Shown here: positions 45,941 through 64,000 of the stretch, in pieces
How positions within the stretch are numbered: position 1 is the first letter of the stretch
Layout of the letters: every line of letters begins with the position of its first letter
Assembly (NCBI RefSeq): GCF_003702705.1
Contig: NZ_QZMN01000007.1
Span: forward strand, 1-64,000
Reading direction: 5' to 3'
Source of the DNA: Ornithinimicrobium cerasi
Lineage (GTDB): Bacteria > Actinomycetota > Actinomycetes > Actinomycetales > Dermatophilaceae
DNA length: 64,000 nucleotides
Program-made: the position numbers and the translations under genes
Notes under the pieces: model-generated
What the model was told of the DNA's origin: nothing
Database searches by the model: none
Seen by the model: the letters and a program-made list of their open reading frames with translations, nothing else

Positions 45941-46948
45941 ATGACCCGCGTCGCACCTGATCCTGACGACGAGCCGGACCCTCTCGCCGGCCTCCTGCGC
46001 GACCTCCGCGCGGACGCCCGCGTGTCGCACGGTGCGCCGGACGCAGCCGGCCCGGCGCCCGGGGCGGACCCTCCCGTTGCCCCCGACCTCGGCGACGGGG
46101 GTCGGCACCGGCCGTCACCGGTGCGGTTCGTCTCGCTCCCGCCGTCGTTGCGCTCGGTCGACCTCGGCGTGGGGCTGCGCGCCGTGCGCGGGATGCTCGT
46201 CGTGGCGGTGGTGGTGACCCTCGTCCTGGGCGGCCGGTGGGCCTGGGCGCTCCGCGAGGCGTCGCCGACGACCGGCGAGGTCGTCGGCCCGGTCGTGGCC
46301 GGACCCGGTGCGCCCGACGCTGTTGCGGTGGAGGAGAGCGGTCCTGGCACGACCGTCCCGCCGGTGGACCCCGTCGCGGCGACGGCGGGCGACGGGCAGG
46401 GGTCCGTGGCTGCAGGCGGCTCCGCCCCGTCGACGGTGACGCCCGCCCTCCTGCTGGTGCACGTCGCGGGGCGGGTGGGTGACCCCGGGGTGGTGGAGGT
46501 CCCCGCCGGCGCGCGGGTGATCGACGCGGTGCACGCTGCTGGCGGCTTCGCCGAGGACGCGGACCAGGCCGCCCTCAACCTGGCGCGCCCGGTGGTCGAC
46601 GGCGAGCAGGTGTGGGTCGGGCGTCCCGGCGAGGCCGCTCCGGCGCACGCCTTCCCGCCAGGTATGCCGCCGGGCTCCGCCGGCGGGTCCGGCGCCGGCG
46701 GCGGTGGCGGTGGCGGCGGGGCTGGCGGCGCTCCCGGCGTGGGTGCCGGGACGCTGCTCGACCTCAACGCGGCGACGCAGGCCGACCTGGAGGAGCTCCC
46801 GGGCGTCGGCCCGGTGACGGCCGGGCAGATCCTCGCCTGGCGGGACGCCCACGGTCGTTTCACCCGGGTGGACGAGCTCCTCGAGGTAAGCGGGATCGGC
46901 GAACGGACGCTGGAGCGGCTCGAGCCGCTGGTGACCGTCGGTGGCTGA
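45941..46948 (+). CDS. comEA: Competence protein ComEA
   Basis: A 335-residue ComEA. A polar N-terminal region is followed by one membrane helix (about 82-105, 'GMLVVAVVVTLVLGGRWAWAL'), a linker, an SLBB domain (about 165-225, 'LLVHVAGRVGDPGVVEVPAGARVIDAVHAAGG', cited in parts), a Gly-rich linker and a C-terminal helix-hairpin-helix DNA-binding domain (about 268-335, 'LDLNAATQADLEELPGVGPVTAGQILAW'). It binds incoming DNA outside the membrane and feeds the ComEC channel. It overlaps comEC by 8 bp. A 14-bp direct repeat GGTGACCGTCCACA lies upstream at 45846 and 45876. Confidence 0.93.
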   Translation: MTRVAPDPDDEPDPLAGLLRDLRADARVSHGAPDAAGPAPGADPPVAPDLGDGGRHRPSPVRFVSLPPSLRSVDLGVGLRAVRGMLVVAVVVTLVLGGRWAWALREASPTTGEVVGPVVAGPGAPDAVAVEESGPGTTVPPVDPVAATAGDGQGSVAAGGSAPSTVTPALLLVHVAGRVGDPGVVEVPAGARVIDAVHAAGGFAEDADQAALNLARPVVDGEQVWVGRPGEAAPAHAFPPGMPPGSAGGSGAGGGGGGGGAGGAPGVGAGTLLDLNAATQADLEELPGVGPVTAGQILAWRDAHGRFTRVDELLEVSGIGERTLERLEPLVTVGG

Positions 46949-47837
46949 CCGGGGGCGCGGCACGGCCCCGGACGATCGCGTCCCCGACGTCGGGCGCGCG
47001 GGCGGGCGTGACGAGCGGCTGCCCGTCACGCGGCTGGACGGGCGGTTGCTCGTCCCCGCGCTCAGCGCGTGGGCGGTGCTGACCGCCCTCCTCCCGCGGC
47101 CGGTCGAGGTCAGCGCGGGAGTGGGGCTGGCCTGCCTGGGCCTCACCCTGGCCGCGGCGGGCTGGCGGCGCGCGGCCCGGTCGCCACCCCGGCACCGTGC
47201 CCGCCCGGCCGGCCCGGGCGTGCGCGGCCTCCTCAGCCTCACCCTGGCCGCGACGGGCCTGGTCTGCACCGGCGCGTCCGCCCACCTCGCCACAGACCGG
47301 GCCGGCCCGGTGGGTGCGTGGGCGCAGGAGCGTGCCGTCGTGTCCGTCGAGGGGGTCGTCACCACCGAACCGAGGGTGGTCAGCCGCGGTGACGAGCGGA
47401 CCGACCTCGTGGTCCTGCACGCGCGGTTGTCCGTGGTGCGAGGGCGCGGGGTCGTGTCGGCCGTCCGCACCCCCGTGCTGGTCATGGCGAACGCGGGCGA
47501 GGGCTGGGAGGACCTCAGCTGGCGCGGGTCGGTCCGCGCGACCGGGCGGCTGCGTCCCCCGGAGCCCGGGGAGCGTCACGTCGCCGTGCTCACCCCCGTC
47601 GGCGCCCCGCAGCAGCGCGCGGAGCCGTCCGGCCTGCTGGCCGGGGTGGACCACGTGCGGGACCGGTTCCGCAGCGCGGTGCAGCCGCTCCCCGCGGACG
47701 CCCGCGGCCTCGTGCCCGGCCTCGTCATCGGCGACACCTCCCTCACCCCGGAGGACCTGACGGAGGCGATGCGCGCCACCGGGATGACCCACCTGTCGGC
47801 CGTCAGCGGGATGAACGTCCGTCGAGGAGATGTGTAG
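46941..47837 (+). pseudogene. comEC: ComEC DNA channel, 5' part cut by prophage insertion
   Basis: A normal ComEC is about 750-850 residues; this frame has 298. It starts at GTG 46941, overlapping comEA, and has the first membrane helices and the soluble N-terminal domain ('VVSVEGVVTTEPRVVSRGDE'). It reaches the conserved core motif 'TGMTHLSAVSGMN', then diverges at once into VRRGDV and a stop at 47837. In intact ComEC the motif continues into the membrane core. The serine integrase gene begins 3 bp later, so the phage attachment site lies within this motif and the 3' part of comEC should be at the far prophage end. Confidence 0.9.
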
Positions 47838-47840
47838 GTA
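47806..47840. other. Probable attL (host-prophage junction in comEC)
   Basis: The change from conserved ComEC sequence to non-homologous sequence falls within or just after GTCAGCGGGATGAAC (about 47806-47820), followed by the integrase start at 47840. A direct repeat GATGTGTA occurs at 47828 and 47855 on the phage side and may be an integrase-binding or autoregulatory sequence. The exact dinucleotide crossover cannot be set without attR. Confidence 0.7.
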
Positions 47841-49333
47841 TGTCGGAGCCGATGTGTACACCTGTTCGCATGCGAGCCCTGATCTACGCCCGTGTCTCCC
47901 TCGACCAAGCCGAGGGCCGCTCGGTCGTCGAGCAGGAGACCGAGTGCCGCGCCTGGGCCGCCCGGGAGGGGTGGACCGTCACCCGGGTCATCACCGAGAC
48001 CGGGTCCGCCTCACGGTACGCCCGCTCCACCGGTGCCCGCACCCGCTGGCCCGACCTCGTCGCCGCCGTCGCCTCCGGCGAGCACGACATCCTCCTCACC
48101 TGGGAGGCATCCCGCGCGACCCGCCAGCTGGGCGAGTACGCCCAGCTGCGCAACCTCTGCGACCTCCACGGCGTGCTCTGGGGGTACTCCGGCCGCACCT
48201 ACGACCTGCGCAACCCCTCCGACCGGTTCGCCACCGGCCTGGACGCCCTCATGTCCGAGGACGCCTCGGCCCGCACGTCCGAGCGGGTGCAGCGGGCCGT
48301 GCGCGCGCGGGCCAGGGAGGGTCGCCCCCACGGGAAGCTGCCCTACGGTTACCGGCGCGAGTACGACCCGACGACGGGGCGGCTGCTGCAGCAGGTCCCC
48401 GACGAGGACCAGGCGCCGGTGGTGCGGGAGATCTACGCCCGCGTCCTCGCCGGCGACAGCCTCTACGGCATCGCGAACGACCTGACCGCCCGCCAAGTCA
48501 CGCCGCCGCGGCCGCCGACGAAGAGGCACGACCGCAAGCAGGAGTGGCTCTCGATCACCCTGCGCAGGATCGCCACGTCGCCGACGTACGCGGCCCGCCG
48601 CACCCACCGTGGCGTCGTGGTCGGCGACGCCGACTGGGAACCGCTCGTGCCCCTCGAGGACTGGGAGCGGGCCGTCGCGATCCTGACCGACCCCGCCCGG
48701 GCGACCCGCACCGGTGACTCGACCTCCCGCCACCTCCTCGCAGGCATCGCCCGGTGCGGCAAGACCGACGAGGTCGGGGCACAGTGCGGGGCCGAGCTGC
48801 GGCACCTGCGCAACCGCGGCCGGTGGGGCACGTACGGGTGCGCCCGGCAAGGCTGCTACGGCGTGGCGATCGCCGCCCCCCATCTCGACGCCTTCGTCCG
48901 TGACGTCGTCCTCACCCTGCTCGAGCAGCACCGCGACGCGCTCGCCGCCGGCGTCGCCGACACCGGACACGACACCGAGCTCCACACGGCCCGGACGCAA
49001 CTGCAGGACCTGCGGGCCCGCCTCGCCGGGTTCGTGACCGAGGCCGGTGCGGGAAGGCTCTCCCCCGCCACACTGTCCGCCGTCGAGGCCGACCTGGCGC
49101 CCCGCATCGCCACGGCAGAGCGCGACGTCCGCCGGCTCCTGCTGCCGCGCACCCTCCCCGACCTCACCGAAGCCGACCCTGCCACCTGGTGGGACTCGCC
49201 GTGCACCGACATCGTGGCCCGCCGCCAGCTCGTGCGGGAACTGGTCACCGTGACCGTTCGCCCGGCAGGCAGGGGCAACTGGGGGAAGCGGGGCCTCGAC
49301 GACACCCGCGTCGACGTCACCCCCCGCTGGTGA
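47840..49333 (+). CDS. int: Large serine recombinase (phage integrase)
   Basis: A 497-residue large serine recombinase. The resolvase catalytic domain (about 10-155) has nucleophile Ser20 in 'ALIYARVSLDQ' and the partner Arg cluster ('ASRATRQLGEY'). The recombinase domain follows (about 170-270, 'GKLPYGYRREYDP...DSLYGIANDL'), then a zinc ribbon with Cys in 'ARCGKTDEVGAQCG' and 'YGCARQGC', and a coiled-coil segment (about 380-440) that controls directionality. It integrates by attP x attB without a tRNA target. ATG 47840 is 3 bp past the truncated comEC stop; internal ATG 47870 (MRALIYARVS) is also possible. Confidence 0.95.
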   Translation: MSEPMCTPVRMRALIYARVSLDQAEGRSVVEQETECRAWAAREGWTVTRVITETGSASRYARSTGARTRWPDLVAAVASGEHDILLTWEASRATRQLGEYAQLRNLCDLHGVLWGYSGRTYDLRNPSDRFATGLDALMSEDASARTSERVQRAVRARAREGRPHGKLPYGYRREYDPTTGRLLQQVPDEDQAPVVREIYARVLAGDSLYGIANDLTARQVTPPRPPTKRHDRKQEWLSITLRRIATSPTYAARRTHRGVVVGDADWEPLVPLEDWERAVAILTDPARATRTGDSTSRHLLAGIARCGKTDEVGAQCGAELRHLRNRGRWGTYGCARQGCYGVAIAAPHLDAFVRDVVLTLLEQHRDALAAGVADTGHDTELHTARTQLQDLRARLAGFVTEAGAGRLSPATLSAVEADLAPRIATAERDVRRLLLPRTLPDLTEADPATWWDSPCTDIVARRQLVRELVTVTVRPAGRGNWGKRGLDDTRVDVTPRW

Positions 49334-49550
49334 AGCGCGACCCCCGGTCCCGGCGACGGCGCAGCTCGAGCAGCGCAGCTGGTTCCGCCTCCCACGCCTC
49401 CGGGTCGGAGATGAGCTGGTTGAGCCGCTGCCACGTCCGGGTCAGGCTCTGCCCCGACGCCCACGTGAGCGCCTCCAGCTCAGCGCCGGCATCACGGTAG
49501 GTGCCGGCGGCCGCACGCACGATGGCCCGGTCGACGTCACTCAGTGCCAT
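49317..49550 (-). CDS. DUF3263 protein
   Basis: A 77-residue protein with the DUF3263 pattern ('RTWQRLNQLISDPEAWEAEP' followed by 'LELRRRRDR'), an actinobacterial small helical family of unknown function, often with DNA-binding-like features. It overlaps the end of the integrase gene on the other strand by 17 bp and the upstream ImmA-like gene by 10 bp. Last gene of the leftward lysogeny operon. Start ATG 49550. Confidence 0.8.
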   Translation of the reverse strand: MALSDVDRAIVRAAAGTYRDAGAELEALTWASGQSLTRTWQRLNQLISDPEAWEAEPAALLELRRRRDRGSRFTSGG

Positions 49551-49975
49551 CCGTGGAGCCCGTCCACGCGCGCAGTGATGATGGCCTTCTCTGCCGGGTG
49601 CAGGTGCGCCGGGTCGAGCCTGGCCTGCAACGTCGGCTCGTCGACCCACAGCTCCTCGGCGGCCTGGTCGAGGTTGCCGCGGGCCCAGACGATCGCGTCG
49701 GCGAGGGTGTGCGGGTCGGGGATGAGCCGTCGGGCCGCCGCCGCGTTGACGGACGCCTCGACGGCAGGTGGCTGGCAGCCGCGGTGCCCCCTGCGGATGT
49801 GCTCGAGCTCGTGGGCGAGGGTGCAGCGGCGTTCGACCTGGCCGAGGCTGTGGTCGAGCCAGATGCGGGTGCGCCCGTCGTTGACGCCCCAGACGCCCGG
49901 GTGCAGCTCGCGCCAGTGAAGGGCGACGTGTGTCAGCGTCCGCAGCTCACGCCACGGGTGATAGTGGATCCCCAT
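49541..49975 (-). CDS. ImmA/IrrE-type metallopeptidase
   Basis: A 144-residue protein with the zinc-protease motif HELEH (residues 55-59) in 'CTLAHELEHIRRGHRG'. In phages and ICEs such proteins cleave the element's own repressor on a DNA-damage signal. Here it lies near an XRE repressor and a DUF2335 protein, so it is a likely trigger of induction. A C-terminal helical region ('AADEELWVDEPTLQARLD'-like) may contact partners. Start ATG 49975. Confidence 0.85.
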   Translation of the reverse strand: MGIHYHPWRELRTLTHVALHWRELHPGVWGVNDGRTRIWLDHSLGQVERRCTLAHELEHIRRGHRGCQPPAVEASVNAAAARRLIPDPHTLADAIVWARGNLDQAAEELWVDEPTLQARLDPAHLHPAEKAIITARVDGLHGWH

Positions 49976-50014
49976 GCCCGGAGACCGTAGACGCGGCCAC
50001 CGACAGTGGCGGGC

Positions 50015-50677
50015 TCACTCCTCGTCGGTCAGGCTGGCGTCATCGCCGGGCCGTCCCCGCCACGCCTCCATGAGCCTTGGGAGCAGGGCCGCGACGACAC
50101 CGATCGCAGTGATGGCTGCGACCGCGTCTAGCCCCTGCCATGCGAACCAGGCGGCCATGATCGCCAGCGCGTAAGGCAAGAGCCCCAGCATCCAGGTGGC
50201 CACCACCGTCGAGTGAGACTCAGCATTGACCAACGTCCGACGGTCACTCTGCTGGCTCGTCATCTCCTGCTCGGCCATCGACACGATGCGGTCAGCCAGG
50301 CCGGGGAGAATCTGCTCGTAGTGCCCCAGCTGAGACGGGTCGGGGAGCGGCCCCGAGTGGGAGTAGGAGAAGGACCTCCCCAGCTCCAGACCGGTCAGCT
50401 GACGCGCGTTTGGATCGCCTTCTGGGTCGTAGATGACCCCATGGCGCGGCTCATCGACTTGCCGGTAGCGCTCCACGCTACGTTCACCAGATTCTGGTTC
50501 TCCACCTGCTTGCGGCGCTTTCGGATGATCGTCTTGCTGCCGGTCGCCGACAGGAATCGACCTGTCTTCACGCCTCGTCGCACGGTGGTCAACATGGTCC
50601 CCTTCCTTGCCATTCTCCGACGGTACCCCAGGACCCTGAGTGCTGTCAGGACCGTTCGGGCCACTAGTTTTGCTCAC
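50015..50677 (-). CDS. DUF2335 membrane protein
   Basis: The C-terminal 140 residues match DUF2335: 'SGPLPDPSQLGHYEQILPGLADRI' (cited in part), 'MAEQEMTSQQSDRRTLVNAES', and two membrane helices ('LGLLPYALAIMAAWFAWQG', 'AVAAITAIGVVAALLP'). Such proteins are phage and mobile-element membrane proteins of unknown role. GTG 50677 overlaps the repressor stop (GTGA). However, codons upstream of about 50476 have low GC at third positions, while another frame there looks coding, so the true start may be GTG 50476 (153 residues). Confidence 0.7.
   Translation of the reverse strand: MSKTSGPNGPDSTQGPGVPSENGKEGDHVDHRATRREDRSIPVGDRQQDDHPKAPQAGGEPESGERSVERYRQVDEPRHGVIYDPEGDPNARQLTGLELGRSFSYSHSGPLPDPSQLGHYEQILPGLADRIVSMAEQEMTSQQSDRRTLVNAESHSTVVATWMLGLLPYALAIMAAWFAWQGLDAVAAITAIGVVAALLPRLMEAWRGRPGDDASLTDEE
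50395..50595 (-). CDS. Small basic protein overlapping the DUF2335 5' region
   Basis: A 66-residue basic open frame (MLTTVRRGVKTGRFLSATGS...KTIIRKRRKQ). Its start has AAGGAAGGGG just upstream, and its third codon positions are about 80 percent G/C, against about 55 percent for the overlapping DUF2335 frame. That supports real coding. No family recognised; a small phage DNA- or RNA-binding protein is possible. It conflicts with the long DUF2335 start, so either the DUF2335 gene starts later or the region is dual-coding. Confidence 0.5.
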   Translation of the reverse strand: MLTTVRRGVKTGRFLSATGSKTIIRKRRKQVENQNLVNVAWSATGKSMSRAMGSSTTQKAIQTRVS

Positions 50678-51183
50678 GATCCGTCCCCGTCTCGATCCTG
50701 CTCCTCCCGCGCTCGCTGGGCGCGAGACTTCCTGCCGGTGGTCCGGGCGGCCACGTCGGCCGGCGGCGTCTCGTCGACGTCGCCGACCCTGGCGTGAAGC
50801 TCCGTCACGTTGCTGGTGGGGGCGGGATGCTGTGCATTGCCCATCACGTCCTCTGTGCCGAGTCCGACCCCCAGCCTGTCGGCCAGCGCCCGGACGAGCT
50901 GCTCGTCGGTCGCAGTGGACAGGTCCGTCTCCCGGCGGACCGCGTCCAGGTCGTAACCCATCGCCTCGAAGGCGACGGCCGTGACCGTGGACTCGCTGAC
51001 CCCGAACGCCCTGGCGATCGCCTGCAGCGTCTCCCGCCGAGGAACCGCCGGCAGGAGCTCGCGGTCGTCGCCCAACATCTGCGACACCCGCTGCCGGGTC
51101 AACCCACTGCTGCGCGCGAGCTCGGACTGCTGCCAGCCACGGGCATCCATCCCGTCCTGCAGGTACCGACGCAGCGCGTGCAT
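50674..51183 (-). CDS. XRE-family phage repressor
   Basis: A 169-residue protein with an N-terminal helix-turn-helix (about 1-65: 'LQDGMDARGWQQSELARSSGLTRQRVSQML', cited in parts) and an unassigned acidic C-terminus. Its position, divergent from a Cro-like gene across a 231-bp operator region and upstream of DUF2335 and an ImmA-like peptidase, identifies it as the probable lysogeny repressor. It lacks a LexA-like S24 cleavage domain, consistent with peptidase-mediated induction. Start ATG 51183 was chosen at the HTH domain; the longer frame crosses the operator region. Confidence 0.87.
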   Translation of the reverse strand: MHALRRYLQDGMDARGWQQSELARSSGLTRQRVSQMLGDDRELLPAVPRRETLQAIARAFGVSESTVTAVAFEAMGYDLDAVRRETDLSTATDEQLVRALADRLGVGLGTEDVMGNAQHPAPTSNVTELHARVGDVDETPPADVAARTTGRKSRAQRAREEQDRDGDGS

Positions 51184-51237
51184 GGGACGACGTTCTCCTA
51201 CCGGCTCGGGTGCCGGCCACTCCTCCGTGCCGGACGT

Positions 51238-51392
51238 GTCAAGCAGGTTAACCGGTACATACCCCGTATTACCGTCAAGCAACCTGCGACACCTCGAAAC
51301 CGCAGGTGAACGGTGAAGTGCAGAAGCACATTCGTGTGATCCGTTGACACGATGACAAGCGTTGTGCAACTATCTGTCATGTACCGCTTGAC
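51238..51392. promoter_or_regulatory. Phage immunity operator/promoter region
   Basis: The gap 51184-51414 between divergent repressor and Cro-like genes is AT-richer than its surroundings. GTCAAGCA occurs at 51238-51245 and 51274-51281, and its inverse GCTTGAC at 51386-51392. GGTACAT at 51254 recurs inverted as ATGTACC near 51379. TTGACA at 51344-51349 with CAACTAT 17 bp on is a plausible rightward promoter. The repeated motif is a candidate repressor/Cro operator. Confidence 0.55.
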
Positions 51393-51414
51393 AACCAGGA
51401 CGAGGGAGACCACG

Positions 51415-51723
51415 ATGAGGACAGAGGCGTACAGGCGCCGCCGCAACGCGAGAGGACGATGGATGAAGCTCAAGGACCGCGAGCTGCTCCTGGAGTACAT
51501 GAAGCTCGGCGACTTCTCCCAGGCTCGGCTCGGCCGCTACGCCGGCGTGAGCCGCCAGTTCATCAACCAGCTCTGCACGGGGGAGCGCACCACCTGCACG
51601 CCTGCGGTCGCCGACCGCATCGAGGAGGGCCTGCGCGTGCTCCCCCACACCCTTTTCGCGCCCAACAAGTCGCACGACACCGGACGTCCTGGCAAGCGTC
51701 GGACGACAGTGACAGCGGCATGA
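51415..51723 (+). CDS. Cro-like XRE-family regulator
   Basis: A 102-residue protein with a basic N-terminus (MRTEAYRRRRNARGRW) and a helix-turn-helix (about 20-75: 'LLLEYMKLGDFSQARLGRYAGVSRQFINQLCTGER', cited in parts). First gene of the rightward early operon, divergent from the repressor, so it likely plays a Cro role. Start ATG 51415 has GAGGGAG upstream; a shorter start at 51463 (MKLKDREL) is possible. It overlaps the next small gene by 4 bp. Confidence 0.8.
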   Translation: MRTEAYRRRRNARGRWMKLKDRELLLEYMKLGDFSQARLGRYAGVSRQFINQLCTGERTTCTPAVADRIEEGLRVLPHTLFAPNKSHDTGRPGKRRTTVTAA

Positions 51724-51878
51724 GCACCCCGACCGCTCCCGACTCCCCCGGCGCCCGTGTGGCGGCACGCCTCATCGCCGAGCGCGGACCGCTGCCGGAC
51801 CACCTCATCACCTCGATCGCCGCCCGCATCCGCAGGTCCGTCACCGAGCACCGGGCCACCGGCCGCAAGCCGGCCTGA
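51720..51878 (+). CDS. Small phage protein
   Basis: A 52-residue open frame starting at ATG 51720, overlapping the Cro-like stop (ATGA). Helical sequence 'ARVAARLIAERGPLPDHLITSIAARIRRSV' appears in parts. Unknown function. The coupling and codon use support coding. Confidence 0.6.
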   Translation: MSTPTAPDSPGARVAARLIAERGPLPDHLITSIAARIRRSVTEHRATGRKPA

Positions 51879-51897
51879 CCCACCCCCTCCGCAAGCC

Positions 51898-51936
51898 GGA
51901 GCCCCCGGCCATCCGACAAGACAGACCAGGGGCTCC
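51898..51936 (+). terminator. Hairpin upstream of the next early gene
   Basis: GGAGCCCC (51898-51905) pairs perfectly with GGGGCTCC (51929-51936), between small genes. It is followed by AACTCTCACAG rather than a T-run, so it may be a weak terminator or a processing or attenuation hairpin. Confidence 0.4.
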
Positions 51937-51962
51937 AACTCTCACAGAAAAGGTATCCCGAG

Positions 51963-52481
51963 ATGGGAACCGTTCCCAGCACCGACACCATCACCGGCTA
52001 CACCTACACCGGCCCGCCGCTCACCCGGCCCCAGGTCCAGGCCTTGCGCGACATCGCCAACGGCATGTGGACCATGGTCAACCCAACCCGCGAGCGAGCA
52101 CTCCACGCACGCGGCCTCACCGACTGCATCGGCGGCCCGAACGGCGCACCCAGCCTCACCCCCCTCGGCCGGGCGGCCCTGGCCGAGGCCGCGCACGCCG
52201 CCTCCCACACTCCCCCGGCAGTACCCCCCACCGCTCCCCACGGTGGCGCCGGGGTCGAGGCCCCGGGTGAGGCGGTGGCGGCTCCCCCGACCGCCCCCGC
52301 CTCCCCGGGGTTCACCCTCCCCTCCGGCTACACCCTCACCGGCGTCACCCTCAACGACGCCTTCGCCGTCGGGTTCGCCCGGCAGACCATCGCCGGAGTC
52401 CTGCGCCGCGGCAACCTCGCCCCCGACGAGGCGACCCGCCTGCGCGACGCCCTCGCCGTGCTCGAGGCGGTGTCGGCATGA
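51963..52481 (+). CDS. Phage protein, function unknown
   Basis: A 172-residue protein in two parts joined by a Pro/Ala-rich linker (about 75-115). The N-terminal part has 'LTRPQVQALRDIANGMWTMV' and 'LTPLGRAALAEAA', a winged-helix-like pattern. The C-terminal part is helical ('NDAFAVGFARQTIAGVLRRG'). ATG 51963 is preceded by AAAAGG. No family recognised. Confidence 0.65.
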   Translation: MGTVPSTDTITGYTYTGPPLTRPQVQALRDIANGMWTMVNPTRERALHARGLTDCIGGPNGAPSLTPLGRAALAEAAHAASHTPPAVPPTAPHGGAGVEAPGEAVAAPPTAPASPGFTLPSGYTLTGVTLNDAFAVGFARQTIAGVLRRGNLAPDEATRLRDALAVLEAVSA

Positions 52482-52792
52482 ACCGCCCGCCCACCGTCAC
52501 CGCCCAGGTCGGCCAGAACGGCCACCCCTACGTCGAGGTCACCCCCGACGGCGACGCGGTCGTCGCCCAGGCCAAGGACCTCCTGGCCTGGCTGCGCGCC
52601 AACCAGCGCGCCACCGAACGCATCCTCGAAGCCGTCCACTACCGCACCGGCACCGACGCCGCCGCCGCGGTCCTCGCCGCGTGGCTGCTGGACGCCACCA
52701 CGGTCCAGCTGGGCGTCGACGACGCGGACGCCCTGGCCGACGCCCTGCGGGACGCGGCCCACCCCACCCACCTCGCCCGCAAGGGAGCTTGA
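52478..52792 (+). CDS. Phage protein, function unknown
   Basis: A 104-residue, mostly helical soluble protein ('DLLAWLRANQRATERILEAVHYRTG'). ATG 52478 overlaps the preceding stop by 4 bp. No family recognised. Confidence 0.65.
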   Translation: MNRPPTVTAQVGQNGHPYVEVTPDGDAVVAQAKDLLAWLRANQRATERILEAVHYRTGTDAAAAVLAAWLLDATTVQLGVDDADALADALRDAAHPTHLARKGA

Positions 52793-52794
52793 CC

Positions 52795-53106
52795 ATGCAC
52801 GCCACCACCACCCCCGCGACGACCGCGGCCGACCTGCTGCGCTGCGCCCTCGACGACGCACCTGACCTGCAGGTCACCCGCGACGAGGACGGTATGGCCA
52901 CCCTCCACGTCCTGACCGAGGGCTGGGGCACCCCGTCCTGGTTCGCTCACACCCTGCCCGAGGACAAGGCGCTGCGCCTCGTCGAGCTGCTTCTGGCCGC
53001 CGCACCCCACCTCGCCGACCTGCTCGACACCTCTGGCGGCGACGTCGACCCGGCCGCGATGTACCGCGTGAAGCAGGCCGTCGCAGAGGCGGGTGAGTCG
53101 CGGTGA
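52795..53106 (+). CDS. Phage protein, function unknown
   Basis: A 103-residue soluble protein with 'DEDGMATLHVLTEGWGTPSWF' and 'ALRLVELLLAAAPHLADLL'. ATG 52795 has AAGGGAG at 52781-52787. It overlaps the next gene by 4 bp (GTGA). No family recognised. Confidence 0.65.
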   Translation: MHATTTPATTAADLLRCALDDAPDLQVTRDEDGMATLHVLTEGWGTPSWFAHTLPEDKALRLVELLLAAAPHLADLLDTSGGDVDPAAMYRVKQAVAEAGESR

Positions 53107-53294
53107 CCCTCGCCGACCTCGCCGACGCCCTCGTCCGCACGCTCCTCTACAGCGCCGGAGCCCTCGCGCTCCTCGTGCTCCTGGCCGCCGCGTTCGCACC
53201 GCGCGCCCACAACAACGACACCACCCACGCCGACCTCTCACCGCTCGACATCCTCGACGGCGTCGGCACCACCGAAGGACGGCACAGCCGATGA
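53103..53294 (+). CDS. Small membrane protein of the phage early operon
   Basis: A 63-residue protein with one hydrophobic helix ('LLYSAGALALLVLLAAAF') and a polar tail. GTG 53103 overlaps the previous stop, and the 3' end overlaps the nuclease ATG. Unknown function. Confidence 0.6.
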   Translation: MTLADLADALVRTLLYSAGALALLVLLAAAFAPRAHNNDTTHADLSPLDILDGVGTTEGRHSR

Positions 53295-54238
53295 CCTCCC
53301 CCAGGCACGCCCTCGACACCGGCGACACCGGCAGGTACTACCTCCACCCCGTCACCGGACAGCAGCTCGTCTCCGTCACCAACGTCCTGTCCACCGCCGT
53401 CGCCAAGCCCGCTCTCGTGCCCTGGGCCGCCAAGATCACCGCCGAGAAGGCCCTCGACCTCCTCCCCGCGTTCGTCCATGCCGCCCTCGTCGCACCGTGC
53501 AAGCCCCGCCGCGTCGCCGACGAGTGCGGCACCTGCACCGACTGCCTCGTCAAGGCCGCCAAGCGCGAGGTCAACCTCGTCAAGGAGAAGGCCTCCGACC
53601 TCGGCACCCGCATCCACCACCACGCCGACGCCCACGTCACCGGCGCCCAGCTCGAGCACGACGAGGAGGTCGAGCCCTACCTCGAGCAGTACCTGCGGTT
53701 CCTGACCGACTTCGACATCGACCTCACCCGCGACGTCGAGGCCGCCGAGCTCACCGTCGCCCACCCCAAGCTGGGACTGGCCGGCACGCTCGACCTGCTC
53801 CTGCACCTGCGCCTGGACGGACGCACCAACGACGGGCGCGTCAAGGCGCTCCCCGAGGGCCAGCGGGCCCTGTGGGTCGTCGACATCAAGACGTCCGCGA
53901 CCAAGTCCGCCACCACGGTCTACCCCGAGATGGCGCTGCAGCTGACCGCGCTGCGCCACTGCACCGAGGCGTGGCTGCCCGACGACACCGTCGCGCCGAT
54001 GCCCGCCCCCATCAAGGGTGCCGCCGTGCTCAACCTGCGCACGAACGACTACGCCCTCATCCCGCTCCCCTCCGGCACGCCGGAGTGGACCGCCTACCGC
54101 GGGCTGCTCGCCGGCACGCAGTGGCTGCACGGCGAGCACACCAAGGACGTCCCCCGCATCACCCCCACCGGGGCGCCGGTCGCCAAGGGCACCACCACCA
54201 GGACCAAGAAGAGCAGTACCGACGGAAAGGCGGCATGA
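53291..54238 (+). CDS. PD-(D/E)XK nuclease (RecB/Cas4-like)
   Basis: A 315-residue nuclease. 'PKLGLAGTLDLLLHL' and 'RALWVVDIKTSATKS' give the D...(E/D)xK active site (Asp, then Asp-x-Lys), and 'VYPEMALQLTALR' fits motif IV of the RecB family. An early Cys cluster ('CKPRRVADECGTCTDC') may bind zinc or an Fe-S cluster. It probably resects or processes phage DNA for recombination. ATG 53291 overlaps the preceding stop. Confidence 0.83.
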   Translation: MTSPRHALDTGDTGRYYLHPVTGQQLVSVTNVLSTAVAKPALVPWAAKITAEKALDLLPAFVHAALVAPCKPRRVADECGTCTDCLVKAAKREVNLVKEKASDLGTRIHHHADAHVTGAQLEHDEEVEPYLEQYLRFLTDFDIDLTRDVEAAELTVAHPKLGLAGTLDLLLHLRLDGRTNDGRVKALPEGQRALWVVDIKTSATKSATTVYPEMALQLTALRHCTEAWLPDDTVAPMPAPIKGAAVLNLRTNDYALIPLPSGTPEWTAYRGLLAGTQWLHGEHTKDVPRITPTGAPVAKGTTTRTKKSSTDGKAA

Positions 54239-54239
54239 C

Positions 54240-55313
54240 ATGCCGATCATCAACATCCAGCGCCGCATGGCCGAGCAGGGCAGGATCCGCCTGGGGGTGA
54301 AGGCCCCGGTCGGCACCAGCGGAAAGACCCGCCCCGCCAAGCTCTCCACGTTCCGCTTCACCTCCCCCAACGCCGGCCTCATCGCCGCGATCGCCGAGCA
54401 GTACGGCGGCACCGCCCGCCCCTGGGACAACGGCGGCAAGCCCGAGCACGAGGTCATCACCGACGCCACGTCCGTCCCCGTCATCGTCACCAAGGGCGGC
54501 CTGTCGCAGTGGATGGAGACCTGGTCCGGCGGCGGGTGCGTCCACCGCTGCGACGGGGAGCGCAACGTCCTCACCGACGAACCGTGCGACCCGCGCGACC
54601 CCAACCACGTCAACGCCAAGCCCACCACCCGCCTCTCCGTCATGCTGACCGAGATCGAGACCCTGGGCGTCTGGCGCATGGAGTCCCACGGGTGGAACGC
54701 CGCCGCCGAGATCCCCGCCATGGCCGAGCTGGCCATGCACGTGGGCGACCTGGTCCCGGCCAACCTGCACCTCATCGAGCGCCGCGCGATCCGCGACGGC
54801 AAGACGTCCCGGTTCGTCGTGCCGGTGCTCGACCTGCAGGTGACCAAGGCCCGCCTCGTCGAGCTGGTCGGTGGGGTCGGTGGCCAGCCCGCCCTCGACG
54901 CCCCCGCCCAGGAGCGTCCGGCGATCGAGGCGCCGCGGCCCGACTACGCCGCGATCGCCGACACCATGCTCGACGTCGACTCCGTCCGCGACCTGTGGAA
55001 GCAGGCCGCCGAGGCCGGCCACCTGGACGAGGACCTCAAGGACACGCTCCTGGAGCGGGTGCGCGCGCTCACCCCCGCGGCCCCCGTCGACGAGCCGGTC
55101 GATGCCGAGGTCGTCGAGGACGCCCCGGCCGACCCGGAGGCCGACCGTATGGCCGTCTGGCAGCAGCTGCTCGCCGCCGCCGGCGCCAAGGGTGCCAGCC
55201 AGAGCGACGTGACCCAGGACGTGGAGTTCATTACCTCCAAGCTCCTGCACGAGTGCACCGCCGAGGACCTGCGCGGCGTGCTCGCCACCTACGCCACCGG
55301 CGAGGTGGCGTGA
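54240..55313 (+). CDS. phiC31 gp3-like recombination directionality factor
   Basis: A 357-residue protein. Its N-terminal 230 residues follow the gp3-like pattern: 'IQRRMAEQGRIRLGVKAPVG', 'LSTFRFTSPNAGLIAAIAEQYGG', 'LSQWMETWSGGGCVHRCDGER' (Cys cluster), 'TRLSVMLTEIETLGVWRMESHG', 'RFVVPVLDLQVTKARLVEL'. In phiC31, gp3 binds the serine integrase and reverses it to attL x attR excision. The C-terminal 120 residues are acidic and helical. Its presence with a serine integrase makes the prophage a complete reversible switch in principle. Assignment is by remembered family pattern. Confidence 0.75.
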   Translation: MPIINIQRRMAEQGRIRLGVKAPVGTSGKTRPAKLSTFRFTSPNAGLIAAIAEQYGGTARPWDNGGKPEHEVITDATSVPVIVTKGGLSQWMETWSGGGCVHRCDGERNVLTDEPCDPRDPNHVNAKPTTRLSVMLTEIETLGVWRMESHGWNAAAEIPAMAELAMHVGDLVPANLHLIERRAIRDGKTSRFVVPVLDLQVTKARLVELVGGVGGQPALDAPAQERPAIEAPRPDYAAIADTMLDVDSVRDLWKQAAEAGHLDEDLKDTLLERVRALTPAAPVDEPVDAEVVEDAPADPEADRMAVWQQLLAAAGAKGASQSDVTQDVEFITSKLLHECTAEDLRGVLATYATGEVA

Positions 55314-56065: not shown

Positions 56066-56346
56066 GCACGACACTGGACACCGCCCACCGTGCCGAGGTC
56101 TACAGGTCCGGACTGACCCGCCGCTGGCGGTGGCGCCTCATCGCCCGCGCCAACGCCGAAAGGGTCGCCACCTCCTCGCAGGCGCGCGGCTACACGCGGC
56201 GCACTGACGCGATCGCCGCCCTGGCCGGGACGACCGGCACCCGGTTCGTGCAGCGCCAGGACGGTACGCAGGTGCTCGGCGTCCTCGTCGGGCTCACCCA
56301 GGACGGACGCCCACGGCAGATCTTCGTCAGCGAGGTCGTGCGGTGA
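56062..56346 (+). CDS. YegP/DUF1508-like small protein
   Basis: A 94-residue protein with 'RRWRWRLIARANAERVATSSQ' and 'GYTRRTDAIAALAG', the core of DUF1508/YegP domains (W-x-R-L-x-A-N-x-E-x-I-A-S). Function of the family is unknown. ATG 56062 overlaps the exonuclease stop. Confidence 0.65.
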   Translation: MSTTLDTAHRAEVYRSGLTRRWRWRLIARANAERVATSSQARGYTRRTDAIAALAGTTGTRFVQRQDGTQVLGVLVGLTQDGRPRQIFVSEVVR

Positions 56347-56801
56347 GCACCGCGACCGTGGCCATGCACCCCGTCCTGTGCGAGTGCGGCTTCGAAGGCA
56401 CCCCCCAACCCCACCCCTCCACCGCCGCCCAGGTCCTCACCCGCCACCGCCAGACCAAGACCCACGCCCGCGCCATGAACGAGCAGGGCACCGACACCCA
56501 CGCCGACCGCATCCAGGCCGTCCTGGAGGAGCTGCACACCGAGTACGGGCCCGGCCCCGGCGACTGGACCCGCGACGCCCTCTGCGCCCAGGTCGGCGGC
56601 GACCTCTGGTTCCCCGCCAAGGGCGGCGGCACCAACGGCGCCAAGACCGTCTGTGCACGCTGCCCCGTCGCGCAGGCGTGCAGGGACTACGCGATCGCCA
56701 CCGGCCAGCAGCACGGCATCTGGGGCGGCATCAACCCCCGCACCATCGCCGCCGCACGTAAGAACACCCCCACCCCGACGAAGGAGAACAGCGCAGCATG
56801 A
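56343..56801 (+). CDS. WhiB-family Fe-S regulator with N-terminal zinc-finger-like segment
   Basis: A 152-residue protein. Residues about 73-140 are a WhiB domain with four cluster Cys (81, 104, 107, 113; CARCPVAQAC) and the G[I/V]WGG turn ('GIWGGINPRT'). Residues 10-45 hold Cys13/Cys15 and His35/His41 in a C2H2-like layout not usual for WhiB proteins. Phage WhiB proteins (for example from TM4) act as dominant regulators of the host WhiB2 pathway and septation. GTG 56343 overlaps the previous stop. Confidence 0.85.
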   Translation: MSTATVAMHPVLCECGFEGTPQPHPSTAAQVLTRHRQTKTHARAMNEQGTDTHADRIQAVLEELHTEYGPGPGDWTRDALCAQVGGDLWFPAKGGGTNGAKTVCARCPVAQACRDYAIATGQQHGIWGGINPRTIAAARKNTPTPTKENSAA

Positions 56802-57567: not shown

Positions 57568-58122
57568 ATGTCCAACACCATCACCATCACCGGCAACCTC
57601 GCCGGCGACCCCGAGCTCCGCTTCACCCCCGGCGGCGACGCCGTCGCCAACTTCACCGTCTGCGACACCCCCCGCCGCTACAACCAGGCCACCAGCCAGT
57701 GGGAGGACGCCGGCGACACCCTCTTCCTGCGCTGCGCCATCTGGCGCGAGGAGGCCGAGCAGGCCGCCCAGACCCTGGTCAAGGGCCAGCGCGTCACCGT
57801 CACCGGCAAGCTCAAGCAGCGCTCCTGGCAGACCCCCGAGGGCGAGAACCGCACCGTCGTCGAGTGCGACGCCGAGTCGATCGCCCCGCACCCGAAGAAG
57901 GGCGCCCAGGGCGGTCAGCAGCAGAGCCCCGGCGGCTTCGCCCAGCGCACCCAGGCCGCACGCGTCCACCAGGCCACCTCCGGCTCCGACCACCTCGCCC
58001 AGCCGGCCTACCAGCCCACCCCCGGCGGGAACCGGCAGCAGGCCGAGCAGCCCCTGCCCGTCCGGAACGGCGGCGGCTGGGGCGGCCAGCCCCAGGGCGC
58101 CTACGAGGACCCGCCGTTCTGA
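57568..58122 (+). CDS. ssb: Single-stranded DNA-binding protein
   Basis: A 184-residue phage SSB. The OB-fold is at 1-110 ('TITGNLAGDPELRFTPGGDAV', 'FLRCAIWREEAEQAAQTLVKG', 'VTVTGKLKQRSWQTPEGE'), followed by a Gly/Gln-rich linker and the acidic tip YEDPPF that binds partner proteins. It coats single-stranded DNA during phage replication. AAAGGA lies 7-8 bp before ATG 57568. Confidence 0.96.
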   Translation: MSNTITITGNLAGDPELRFTPGGDAVANFTVCDTPRRYNQATSQWEDAGDTLFLRCAIWREEAEQAAQTLVKGQRVTVTGKLKQRSWQTPEGENRTVVECDAESIAPHPKKGAQGGQQQSPGGFAQRTQAARVHQATSGSDHLAQPAYQPTPGGNRQQAEQPLPVRNGGGWGGQPQGAYEDPPF

Positions 58123-58626: not shown

Positions 58627-58677
58627 ATGACGCGCCAGCACCACCCCACCACCGCCCGCGCCGAGGGCGACCGGTGA
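58627..58677 (+). CDS. Micro-ORF coupled to the helicase gene
   Basis: ATG 58627 opens a 16-codon frame (MTRQHHPTTARAEGDR) ending in TGA at 58675-58677, which overlaps the helicase GTG at 58674 (GTGA). GGAAGGG stands 8-10 bp upstream, whereas the helicase start has no site of its own. It probably delivers ribosomes to the helicase start by re-initiation; the peptide itself need not matter. Confidence 0.45.
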   Translation: MTRQHHPTTARAEGDR

Positions 58678-60089
58678 GCGTGACCACCCTCCACGCAGGC
58701 CCACCACCGGCCCACGACCGCAACCCCCCGGGCAACGACGCCTACGAACGCGCCGCCCTCGGCGCCGCCCTCGCCTACCCCCGCGGCTACCCCACCCTCC
58801 TGGCCGAGCACACCACCGCAAGCCTCTTCTACCAACCAGCCCACGAGAACATCTGGCACGCCATCAGCGCCCTCGCCGCCAGGTCAGCCCCCATCGACCC
58901 CCTCACCGTCGGCGAGGAGCTCCGCCGCACCAAGACCCTCACCCGCTCCGGCGGCCAGACCTACCTGCACCAGCTGCACGCCGAAGCACCCCAGCCCGAG
59001 GTCGCCGCCTACTACGTCGCCGAACCCGGCACCGGCCTGCACGCCCTCGCCGCCCGCCGCCGCGCCCAGAACCTCGCCCTGCGCCTCCTGAACGCCAGCG
59101 ACGACGCCAGCTGCGAACCCGACCAGCTCCTCGCCACCCTCCGCGAGCACCTCGACGCCGAGACCGCCCGCGACGTCCACGGACCCACCCTGCCCGGCAC
59201 CGACGTCGACACCTTCCTCGCCCAGGCCGACGACGACCACTACGACTGGCTCATCCCCGGCTTCCTCGAACGCCAGGACCGAGCCATCCTCACCGCCGGA
59301 GAGGGCGTCGGCAAGTCCACCATGCTCCGCCAGTGGGCCGTCCAGACCGCCGCCGGCATCCACCCCTTCACCGGCGAGCACCACACCCCCGCCAAGGTCC
59401 TCCTCCTCGACCTCGAGAACTCCGAACGCCAGACCCGCCGCAAGCTCCGCCCCCTGCGGATCCAGGCCGGCGCACACCTCGACCCCGCCAACCTCGTCGT
59501 CGTCTGCAAGGTCGACGGACTCGACCTCACCACCGACACCGACGCCACCTGGCTCTCCCGCCTCGTCAGCCACCACCAGCCCGACCTCCTCATCACCGGA
59601 CCCGTCTACAAGCTCGCCGGCGGAGACCCCACCCGCGAGGAGGACTCCAAGCCCGCCGCCATGGCCCTGGACCGCCTCCGCGCCGAGCACGACCTCACCC
59701 TCCTCATCGAGGCCCACTCCGCCAAGGCCAACGGCGGCGGCAAGCGCCCCAAGGAGCCCTACGGGTGGTCCGGGTGGCTGCGCTGGCCCGAGTTCGGCCT
59801 CAACCTCTCCGAGGAGGGGGACCTCACCCACTGGCGCGGGATGCGCGACGAACGCGACATCCCGATGCATTTCAACAGGGGCGGCACCTGGCCGTGGAAT
59901 CCCGTTATCAATGTCGCGGAAATGCGGTGGATGCAAATCCAACGGGTCATTCAGGACGCGCCGAAGAAACTCACCCAGCGTGAAATAGCCGACGCCACAA
60001 AGATCCCCCAGGCGACCGTCTCCCGGGTCATGGCCGAGCACGCCGGCGAGGTCACCGTCCTCAACCACCGCCACGAGCTGGAGGGCTGA
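58674..60089 (+). CDS. Phage replicative helicase (DnaB N-terminal plus RecA-like ATPase)
   Basis: A 471-residue protein. Residues 20-130 resemble the DnaB N-terminal domain ('NDAYERAALGAALAYPRGYP', 'LFYQPAHENIWHAISALAAR'). Residues 190-400 form a RepA-like RecA ATPase with Walker A GEGVGKST (209-216), Walker B 'AKVLLLDLENSE' and 'DLLITGPVYKLAGG'. The C-terminus has a helix-turn-helix ('LTQREIADATKIPQATVSRV'), fitting origin binding at the iterons just downstream. The last 200 bp are less GC-rich than the rest. GTG 58674 is coupled to the micro-ORF. Confidence 0.85.
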   Translation: MSVTTLHAGPPPAHDRNPPGNDAYERAALGAALAYPRGYPTLLAEHTTASLFYQPAHENIWHAISALAARSAPIDPLTVGEELRRTKTLTRSGGQTYLHQLHAEAPQPEVAAYYVAEPGTGLHALAARRRAQNLALRLLNASDDASCEPDQLLATLREHLDAETARDVHGPTLPGTDVDTFLAQADDDHYDWLIPGFLERQDRAILTAGEGVGKSTMLRQWAVQTAAGIHPFTGEHHTPAKVLLLDLENSERQTRRKLRPLRIQAGAHLDPANLVVVCKVDGLDLTTDTDATWLSRLVSHHQPDLLITGPVYKLAGGDPTREEDSKPAAMALDRLRAEHDLTLLIEAHSAKANGGGKRPKEPYGWSGWLRWPEFGLNLSEEGDLTHWRGMRDERDIPMHFNRGGTWPWNPVINVAEMRWMQIQRVIQDAPKKLTQREIADATKIPQATVSRVMAEHAGEVTVLNHRHELEG

Positions 60090-60465: not shown

Positions 60466-61023
60466 ATGAGAATCCTCGCAATAGACCCCGGCAACACCGA
60501 GTCCGGGTGGTGCGTCATCGACGCAGACACCCGAAAGCCGATCGAGTTCGGCAAGACCGAGAACTACGAACTGCTCGACCGCATCCTCGACGAGGACCTC
60601 GGCCAGCACCGGACCGTGATCGAGATGGTCGCCTCCTACGGCATGGCCGTCGGCGCCGACGTCTTCGAGACCTGCGTCTGGGTCGGCCGCTTCCTCCAGG
60701 GCCACGGGCTCGCCCAGAACGTGGTCGAGCTCGTGAAGCGCCAGCCCGTCAAGGTTCACCACTGCCACTCCGCCAAGGCCAAGGACACCAACATCCGCCA
60801 GGCCCTCGTCGATCGCTTCGCACCCGGCCAGCCCAACCACGGCAAGGGCACCAAGGCCGAACCGGGATGGTTCCACGGCTTCCGCGCCGACGTCTGGCAG
60901 GCCTACGCCCTGGCGGTCTACGCCGCCGACACCATGGCGGCCGAGGTGCCGAACGGGCCCGAACGTTCGCCGGGAGGGGCGCGCGTGGGTGGTCGGTTGC
61001 TGTACGGGGCGGCGGGGCTGTGA
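60466..61023 (+). CDS. RuvC-like Holliday junction resolvase
   Basis: A 185-residue RNase H-fold nuclease. 'MRILAIDPGNTESGWCVID' carries the first catalytic Asp, 'TVIEMVASYGMAVG' the Glu and 'QAYALAVYAADTM' the C-terminal Asp. It fits the RuvC-like resolvases found in actinophages, which resolve branched DNA before packaging. GGAAGGA at 60451-60457 supports ATG 60466. Confidence 0.85.
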   Translation: MRILAIDPGNTESGWCVIDADTRKPIEFGKTENYELLDRILDEDLGQHRTVIEMVASYGMAVGADVFETCVWVGRFLQGHGLAQNVVELVKRQPVKVHHCHSAKAKDTNIRQALVDRFAPGQPNHGKGTKAEPGWFHGFRADVWQAYALAVYAADTMAAEVPNGPERSPGGARVGGRLLYGAAGL

Positions 61024-62351: not shown

Positions 62352-62864
62352 ATGGCCGCTCCCCGCCGCTGGACCCCCGCCGACGACGACACCCTGCGCG
62401 CCCTGCACGCCCAGGGCAGGACCCTGCACGCCATCGCCGGCGAGATGGGCCGTGGCAAGGCCACGATCTCCGCCAAGGCCGCCGAGATGGACCCGCCGCT
62501 GTCGTGGGCGCGCGACCAGGTCGCCAACGCCACCCAGGCGAAGGTGGTCGACGCCAAGGCCCGCCGCGCCGACGTCAAGCTGCGCCTCCTGTCCCGCGCC
62601 GAGCACCTCCTGTCCCGCCTCGAGGCGACCGAGTTCACCACCCTCGTCCCCGACGGCCCCGGCGTCCAGGCGTCGAAGACGCTGCCGTTCGTGCCGCCCG
62701 ACGACGAGAAGGCACTCTCCGGTGCGCTCGCGTCCTACCTCGCCTCCTACGACCGCCTCGAGAAGCTCGACGGCGACAACGGGGTGGCCGACGCCGTCGG
62801 GATGCTCGACAAGATCGCCGACGCGATCAAGGCCGCCGCCGCGACCATGCCCGACCCGGCATGA
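62352..62864 (+). CDS. Putative terminase small subunit
   Basis: A 170-residue protein with an N-terminal homeodomain-like helix-turn-helix ('RRWTPADDDTLRALHAQGRT', 'LHAIAGEMGRGKATISAKAAEM' in parts) and a helical C-terminus. Immediately upstream of, and overlapping by 4 bp, the terminase large subunit, so it probably recognises the packaging site. Start ATG 62352 follows GTGAGG; the longer upstream frame runs through the terminator hairpin. Confidence 0.78.
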   Translation: MAAPRRWTPADDDTLRALHAQGRTLHAIAGEMGRGKATISAKAAEMDPPLSWARDQVANATQAKVVDAKARRADVKLRLLSRAEHLLSRLEATEFTTLVPDGPGVQASKTLPFVPPDDEKALSGALASYLASYDRLEKLDGDNGVADAVGMLDKIADAIKAAAATMPDPA

Positions 62865-64000
62865 CCGCCCTCGTCACCGCCACCGCGGTCCTGTCGGCCG
62901 TCCTGGCCGGCCTGTCCCCCAAGCAGGTCTGGTCGATCGCCCGGGCCGTCGCCCGGGTCAATCTCTGGACGGGCAGCATCCGCTCCGGCAAGACCATCGC
63001 GTCCCTGCTCGCCTGGCTCATCTTCGTCTCCCACGCCCCCCGCGGCGGCGAGCTCGTCGTCGTCGGCCGCACCCGCGAGTCCATCGCCCGCAACGTCTTC
63101 GGACCCCTCACCGACCCGACCCTCTTCGGGGTCCTGTCCCGGCAGGTGTCCTACACCGCCGGCGCCCCCACCGGGAAGATCCTGGGCCGCACCGTGCACG
63201 TCCTGGGCGCCTCCGACACCCGCGCCGAGATGGTCCTGCGAGGCCTCACCGTCGCCGGGGCCTACGTCGACGAGGCCACACTCGTCTCCGAGGCGTTCTG
63301 GACCCAGCTCCTGGGCCGCATGTCCGTCCCCGGGGCCCGGCTGTTCGCCACCACGAACCCCGACGGGCCTGCGCACTGGCTGAAGCGGCAGGTGGTCGAC
63401 CGCGCGACCGAGCTCGGCTACCAGGTGTTCCGGTTCCGCCTGGCGGACAACGCCCACCTGGCCGCCGAGTACGTCGCCCAGATCAGTCGCGAGTTCGTCG
63501 GGCTGTGGTACCGCCGGTTCATCCTCGGCGAGTGGGTGCAGGCCGAGGGTGCCGTCTACGACACCTGGGACCCGGCCCGGCACGTCGTCACCGTCGACCA
63601 GCTCCCCGTCATGGACCAGGTCCTGCTCGCCGGCGTCGACTACGGCGACGTCCACCCCACCCGCGGCTACCTGCTGGGCCTGGGCCCGGACCCCGTCAAC
63701 GGCGGCTACCGGCTCTACGTCCTGTCCGAGTGGGCGCCCGGGCGCATGACCATCGGCCAGCACTCCACCGACCTGCGCCGCTGGCTCGCCGAGCAGCCGC
63801 AGGCGTGGCGGGACCCGGCCTGGGTCGCCGTCGACAGCGCGGCCGCGTCCTTCAAGCACCAGCTCTTCCACGACGGCATGACGAACGTGCGCAACGCCCA
63901 CAAGAACGTCCTGGCCGGGATCCGCACCGTCTCCGCAGCCCTGGCCGTGGACAAGCTGGTCGTGGCCGACACGTGCACCCACCTGATCGAGCGTCTGCCC
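62861..64000 (+). CDS. Terminase large subunit (partial, runs off window)
   Basis: 380 codons are visible. The ATPase has Walker A 'GSIRSGKT' (38-45), Walker B 'AGAYVDEATLV' and coupling motif 'FATTNPDGPAHWLK'. The nuclease begins at 'LAGVDYGDVHPTRGYLLGLG' (first catalytic Asp) with 'WVAVDSAAASFKHQL' (second). It is of the PBSX/Terminase_3 type. It drives DNA into the prohead and cuts it. ATG 62861 overlaps the small-subunit stop (ATGA). No stop before 64000. Confidence 0.93.
   Translation, partial: MTALVTATAVLSAVLAGLSPKQVWSIARAVARVNLWTGSIRSGKTIASLLAWLIFVSHAPRGGELVVVGRTRESIARNVFGPLTDPTLFGVLSRQVSYTAGAPTGKILGRTVHVLGASDTRAEMVLRGLTVAGAYVDEATLVSEAFWTQLLGRMSVPGARLFATTNPDGPAHWLKRQVVDRATELGYQVFRFRLADNAHLAAEYVAQISREFVGLWYRRFILGEWVQAEGAVYDTWDPARHVVTVDQLPVMDQVLLAGVDYGDVHPTRGYLLGLGPDPVNGGYRLYVLSEWAPGRMTIGQHSTDLRRWLAEQPQAWRDPAWVAVDSAAASFKHQLFHDGMTNVRNAHKNVLAGIRTVSAALAVDKLVVADTCTHLIERLP

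Follow-up and report, generated by a model that had tools for sequence, protein, structure and literature searches.

Prophage insertion in comEC, the gene of the DNA-uptake channel, is not new in kind. The streptococcal prophages Phi1207.3 (Tn1207.3) and Phi10394.4 are described as residing in comEC/celB by means of serine recombinases acting at a GA dinucleotide (PMC4260502, PMC4288039). The Listeria phages A118 and phi10403S are reported to combine a large serine integrase with a competence gene, comK, as bacterial attachment site (attB), a GG core and a length of about 40 kb (PMC3556126, PMC6872733), and pneumococcal prophages in comGC/comYC, which hit another transformation gene, are discussed as an obstacle to curing the chromosome through transformation (PMC10383233, PMC12637031). 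Among actinophages, Streptomyces phage phiJoe is described with a serine integrase that needs a recombination directionality factor for excision and whose phage attachment site (attP) is a short imperfect inverted repeat with a 5'-GG centre (PMC5311408). Here we analyse a prophage that splits comEC in Ornithinimicrobium cerasi (assembly GCF_003702705.1, contig NZ_QZMN01000007.1, named C66 below). The window, meaning the whole stretch of DNA analysed, comprises the first 64,000 bases of this 232,067 bp contig, the draft genome amounting to 3.83 Mb in 87 contigs. We consider the locus to represent, very probably, an ordinary lysogeny by a temperate tailed phage that reversibly disables DNA uptake.

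Like Phi1207.3 and Phi10394.4 as these are described, the element is a serine-recombinase prophage that interrupts the coding sequence of comEC at one defined dinucleotide. This dinucleotide is GG here and GA there, and the streptococcal prophages are portrayed with three resolvase-type recombinases, two of them in tandem, whereas here one large integrase adjoins the junction; their hosts are Firmicutes, and the likeness is one of description rather than of compared ComEC codons. With the Listeria phages the element shares all four features listed above as well as a precise excision that rebuilds the gene, which in our case is an in silico operation, but comK encodes a regulator and comEC the channel, and for Listeria a regulated non-lytic excision is reported as demonstrated. 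According to its source, phiJoe resembles the present phage in integrase type and attP geometry but has its S. coelicolor sites flanking the sco2603 element and not comEC, while the pneumococcal prophages differ by the gene they hit. A previous sequence-only reading of this DNA knew of no described comEC case in actinobacteria. For this phylum, the titles and abstract openings among the literature matches listed likewise gave no report of a comEC prophage, but in streptococci comEC is a known prophage site, as cited above.

The DNA receptor gene comEA is intact at 45941-46948 on the forward strand (SLBB PF10531, 53.9 bits; HHH_3 PF12836, 62.6 bits) and overlaps comEC. The host-derived 5' part of comEC follows at 46941-47809 (+), its GTG at 46941 being a mechanical ORF start, and ends with the GG of a conserved Gly codon. 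In the truncated frame, 46941-47837, a weak DUF4131 match is accompanied by a PF03772 match restricted to model positions 1-33, at 47721-47819. The 3' half lies in frame outside the window at C66:88165-89739, with PF03772 model positions 30-267 at C66:88165-88884 and a Lactamase_B domain after them. Between the halves stands the prophage, 47810-88166, with a length of 40,357 bp. Joined in silico, the flanks form one open frame of 291+524 = 815 codons, reckoned from the preceding stop and free of internal stops, and the joined flanks of four other genomes are likewise open across the junction. No second comEC was detected by PF03772 in the genome at E<=0.001. A naturally short comEC was rejected, as in 25 of 32 genus genomes a single open frame matches PF03772 from model position 1 up to 226 or beyond. 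The intact comEA, the 3' part expected at the far end and the whole gene in relatives lacking the element, all anticipated by the sequence-only reading, were found. Of the other competence parts, DprA and three T2SSE ATPases above cut-off are present in the window genome.

The left junction reads ...GTCAGC GG|GATGAACGTC... and the right junction ...TTTGTC GG|GAGCAACGTG..., with the crossover dinucleotide GG of attL at 47808-47809 (+) and its partner in attR at C66:88165-88166. These two bases open the invariant Gly codon of the ComEC sequence HLSAVSG|SN (motif HLSAVSG(S/A)N). We place the crossover at this codon because the right-hand comEC halves of lysogens carry Ser-Asn, whereas of the five left-hand halves extending beyond GG only that of G030 does. 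In all 25 empty-site comEC genes fetched from the 32 genus genomes searched, SGSN stands at the crossover point. The use of comEC as attB and the break inside HLSAVSG.N, both proposed before, are thereby borne out, but the proposed position of about 47,820 lies some 10 bp too far downstream: the 10 bases at 47810-47819, with an apparent M-N-V, belong to the phage attP, which here resembles the host motif. They open the phage-derived tail that is fused to truncated ComEC at 47810-47837 (+), which has its stop at the end and, judged from junction sequences and attP symmetry, forms part of an attP arm. A longer shared core was rejected too, the longest exact repeat of the junction regions being 10 bases and lying away from the junctions; only GG is common to the elements as core.

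When the phage half-sites were abutted, the inverted-repeat score of attP peaked at GG in all six elements with both ends read, with 15, 8, 10, 14, 8 and 10 matches of 18, each the best of 13 centres tested (P against shuffles 0, 0.035, 0.012, 0, 0.08 and 0.003). The attB sites score only 4-6. The attL and attR sites are thus reciprocal hybrids around a 2-bp core with a near-palindromic attP, as is characteristic of large serine integrases, and phiJoe and A118 are described with the same inverted repeat centred on GG (PMC5311408, PMC3556126). Such an integrase is encoded directly past the truncated frame at 47840-49333 (+), with both the catalytic Resolvase domain (PF00239, 70 bits) and the Recombinase domain (PF07508, 40.3 bits) and a phrog_95 match of 278 bits. 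Its translation likely starts at 47870, as suggested by alignment with relatives, and Ser20 is invariant across all seven aligned sequences. It is the one integrase seen in a profile scan of part of the element's ORFs and stands at the element end. A Gp3-like recombination directionality factor is predicted at 54240-55313 (+) by PF18897 with 127.5 bits against a cut-off of 23.6. For both genes the assignments of the sequence-only reading could be kept.

We propose that a temperate tailed phage, equipped with replication, packaging, head and tail genes, has integrated via its large serine integrase at the 2-bp GG core. Following serine-integrase chemistry, this would interrupt the ComEC channel domain 33 positions into its 270-position model and leave no working ComEC, while upon induction, recombination of attL with attR in the presence of the Gp3-like factor would restore comEC exactly. 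For Micrococcus luteus, itself an actinobacterium, both comEA and comEC are described as essential for transformation (PMC8467076), and in pneumococcus, excision of Phi1207.3 from comEC/celB is reported to bring back low competence (PMC10383233). Less surely, the phage may benefit from a site that is highly conserved and dispensable for growth, and from a loss of comEC that would block transformation capable of deleting the prophage. A regulated switch serving the host is possible, but this reading does not require one.

The same site is occupied in other genomes. Within the genus, comEC is split at the GG codon in three of 32 genomes. At family level, where 181 of 187 genomes searched match PF03772, six combine a split comEC with an adjoining related integrase, namely the window genome, Serinicoccus sediminis (G021), G030, Janibacter terrae (G098), Janibacter massiliensis (G099) and Phycicoccus sp. 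HDW14 (G160), the five others having integrases 54-65 % identical to that of the window. The integrase is matched at E<=1e-40 in nine of 186 family genomes; G168 and G147 carry it elsewhere and have a whole comEC, and in G024 it stands beside another gene and the PF03772 match is absent. Twelve of 68 integrase loci (67 from genome contigs, one from IMG/VR) adjoin comEC, where the label "not in comEC" means for the others that the sequence stretch examined holds no comEC. These twelve belong to S. sediminis, J. massiliensis, J. terrae and Phycicoccus sp. HDW14 and to eight more distant sources with integrases 34-46 % identical: Granulicoccus, Microbacterium halotolerans, a Curtobacterium metagenome-assembled genome (MAG), Pseudosporangium, two Modestobacter, Pseudonocardia ammonioxydans and a Pseudonocardiaceae MAG. 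The phage clone record MT835531.1 (Bacteriophage sp., human faeces; L155, 6982-11385), whose integrase is 54 % identical, is an integrated prophage with host flank, because host comEC 3' sequence stands beside the integrase. In total, homologous integrases (34-65 % identical) stand at the comEC Gly codon in 15 genomes or records, window and G030 included, from at least seven actinobacterial families (Ornithinimicrobiaceae, Intrasporangiaceae, Microbacteriaceae, Propionibacteriaceae, Micromonosporaceae, Geodermatophilaceae and Pseudonocardiaceae).

At order level, seven of 396 genomes, window included, match the integrase at E<=1e-100, and the six others show no comEC within 1.5 kb on either side; a genome-contig scan with the window integrase as sole query gave no match. 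In an integrase tree of 62 sequences, built by a quick method and with several long branches, the comEC label requires five changes, at least four of them forced by the starred branches, against a mean of 13.6 for shuffled labels. Therefore comEC use by these integrases seems, as far as the tree can tell, to be old or to have arisen more than once. The tree took 58 of the 67 genome-contig loci and four others, omitting L091 (a duplicate of L090), L133-L135, L138, L140 and L151-L153.

The insertions differ in orientation. The integrase adjoins the comEC 3' half in nine of the 15 (G030, L087, L088, L089, L090, L114, L119, L120 and L155) and the 5' half in six (the window, L093, L094, L096, L126 and L131). 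The window insertion is the sole reversed one in its own clade of seven comEC integrases, and its entire gene order is inverted along with the integrase, because the gene order counted from the integrase agrees with that of G030 and G021. For A118, orientation is described as depending on nothing but the two core bases (PMC3556126). If the core read GG rather than CC on the integrase strand and the arms were near-symmetric, the reversal would be explained.

Other interruptions of comEC were sorted out. In G167, comEC stops precisely at GG at two contig termini (start of C37, L055; end of C158, L039), but the integrase matches of this genome lie elsewhere and it was not counted; such a break would be expected if empty and occupied forms coexisted in the data, and a search for a phage contig with the integrase at this break found none. 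The single-contig genome G006 has an internal comEC deletion of about 140 codons (L034, C1:1054294-1057614), which is not a prophage event and is another route to loss of the channel. The breaks in G126, G133 and G146 are frameshifts and those in G009 and G093 contig ends, while G081 and G180 carry a second fragment beside a whole PF03772 match. Homologous integrases were also seen in other genes. Those of L063 (38 % identical), L064 (37 %) and L081-L086 stand at a conserved motif in apparent ABC-F/ABC-transporter ATPase genes, named by eye, and that of L065 (G147:C7) in an apparent 13E12-type HNH gene, presumably a target reminiscent of that of phiRv1. A further integrase of the window's clade is present in Phycicoccus sp. 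HDW14 (L067/L092, G160:C1:22016-23425), in a gene which we take to resemble an AtoE-like short-chain fatty acid transporter; a nearly identical copy, L154, is the one locus returned by an IMG/VR search with the integrase and is not in comEC.

From the integrase outward, the prophage encodes peptidase and repressor candidates, the exonuclease, the Gp3-like factor, WhiB, a single-strand binding protein, helicase and resolvase, followed by terminase, portal, minor head, capsid, major tail and tape measure. A candidate ImmA/IrrE-like metallopeptidase at 49541-49975 (-) scores 20.2 bits with PF06114, just below the cut-off of 22. It is followed by a candidate XRE-type repressor at 50674-51183 (-; HTH_3, 36 bits) and a candidate Cro-like helix-turn-helix protein at 51463-51723 (+), for which the phrog_5823 match is weak (19.7 bits). 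The phage exonuclease at 53291-54238 (+) matches phrog_298 with 138 bits and has no Pfam match. Further on the forward strand we find the phage WhiB-like regulator (56343-56801, PF02467, 64.4 bits), the single-strand binding protein (57568-58122, PF00436, 90.1 bits), the DnaB-like/AAA helicase (58674-60089, PF13481 and PF00772), the Holliday junction resolvase (60466-61023, phrog_1770, 78 bits) and the terminase large subunit, which occupies 62861-64000 of the window (phrog_2, 111.8 bits on this part) and extends beyond it to C66:64183. A PHROG labelled endolysin matches the tape-measure protein. The stretch C66:80863-84387 encodes a PIG-L deacetylase at 80863-81570 together with a GDSL-domain protein of fibre-like character and an opposite-strand GDSL-type protein, and these are possibly host-surface genes.

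Capsid kin include Gordonia phage TinyDot (66 %) and the Streptomyces phages Darolandstone (56 %) and SV1 (54 %). A capsid-based search of viral contigs gave 269 stretches, of which 80 were kept and 30 of those 80 records searched for the integrase; three of the 30 hold a distant match (E<=1e-20). As the other 27 hold none, either different integrases prevail among the capsid kin or the records have been trimmed. IMGVR_UViG_2833441259_000001 (37,869 bp) has a capsid 100 % identical to that of the window prophage and no integrase match, as if its integrase end had been trimmed off.

The comEC halves of the three genus lysogens were compared with the nearest intact gene, G098, G099 and G160 being left out. 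For the 3' half the dN/dS ratios are 0.22, 0.16 and 0.13, against 0.14-0.34 among 44 intact pairs; for the 5' half they are 0.31, 0.16 and 0.14, against 0.15-0.40 among 36 intact pairs. These values mostly reflect the time before insertion and do not date it. At the sequence level, the lysogen comEC halves show no clear sign of decay. In J. terrae two comEC prophages lie in tandem; they agree completely over 44,480 bp and are separated by an attP (G098:C6:462500-551476; L068-L070, L077-L079), so that attP-bearing molecules existed, whether in a double lysogen or as assembled circular phage DNA, unless the assembly is wrong.

Several observations weigh against this reading or limit it. A pattern search for attP in the window's own assembly, allowing up to 3 mismatches, found only attR, and no lysin gene was identified among the element proteins scanned. 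PF18897 finds a Gp3-like factor in just three of the six comEC-lysogen genomes. In Phycicoccus sp. HDW14 the comEC 3' half is frameshifted, leaving only 136 codons on the 3' side, and the attP symmetry of this element (G160) is by itself not significant against shuffles (P 0.08). Measured against the three nearest intact genes per lysogen, dN/dS rises up to 0.35 in the 3' half and 0.40 in the 5' half. Relative rates in 36 lysogen/sister/outgroup comparisons gave more changes in the lysogen in 17, fewer in 17 and equal numbers in two; the largest excesses are 46 to 15 (outgroup L028) and 18 to 7 (L018) for G021, and 8 to 2 (L025) for G030, where L028 and L018 may be close kin of the sister, in which case the count would be biased. 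Both ends were read in six of the 15 insertions, the other nine offering one end only with the exact core set by analogy; at these nine, comEC similarity stops or starts at the Gly codon, with GG at the expected place.

Among the alternatives, a neutral choice of site survives best. The integrase would merely favour conserved codons in a gene dispensable for growth, and hosts that transform rarely or never would carry the insertion without a phenotype. The homologous integrases in other genes, several of them the apparent ABC-transporter ATPase genes, point to such a general preference for conserved codons, and we know of no transformation in these genera. On the other hand, comEA is retained together with DprA, pilus-type ATPases and comEC halves that are open, and according to the tree comEC either has long been preferred or was hit on more than one occasion. 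We regard this explanation as rather unlikely.

A host-regulated, non-lytic excision that switches DNA uptake on again, as in Listeria with its comK prophage, would fit the architecture shared with the comK phages as these are described (serine integrase, GG core, competence gene; PMC3556126, PMC6872733). It would also agree with the dN/dS of 0.13-0.31 in the lysogen halves, within or just below the ranges of intact pairs, with the encoded directionality factor and with the flanks that join to an open frame in silico. The phage has, however, kept its replication, packaging, head and tail genes, and a recent insertion would equally leave the halves open. Moreover, the site is held by different elements and not by one domesticated element: of 66 called genes in the window element, 32 are matched in that of G030, 23 in that of G021 and 8 in that of G098. 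We thus regard such active lysogeny as clearly unlikely.

That the element is a dead remnant and comEC lost for good, for which the missing attP and lysin would speak, is very improbable in view of an integrase, portal and capsid that cover most of their profile lengths, comEC halves that are open and of normal length, and the perfect tandem pair in J. terrae. An assembly artefact fusing phage to comEC, conceivable in a draft of 87 contigs, can practically be dismissed, since a comEC half adjoins a homologous integrase in 14 other genomes or records, including the single-contig G030 and Phycicoccus sp. HDW14, with reciprocal att halves at both ends in five of the 14.

Ordinary lysogeny by a temperate tailed phage remains our preferred reading, and a wider view can be attached to it, tentatively and with the odds against it. 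An old guild of actinophages may have specialised on the DNA-uptake channel, with the invariant Gly codon of ComEC as a phylum-wide docking site used in both orientations. Lysogeny and transformation would then be mutually exclusive across Actinomycetota, toggled by the integrase and the directionality factor. The 15 natural integrase/attB cases with their opposite orientations offer material for studying how integrases hold on to one target when the element can enter either way round. Every transformable bacterium studied to date is described as having ComEC (PMC8467076). If one of its invariant codons serves repeatedly as attB, the lysogenic state of the cells may be part of what restricts transformation in Actinomycetota, and the conflict between phage and transformation seen in streptococci would extend to a phylum in which competence has been little studied.

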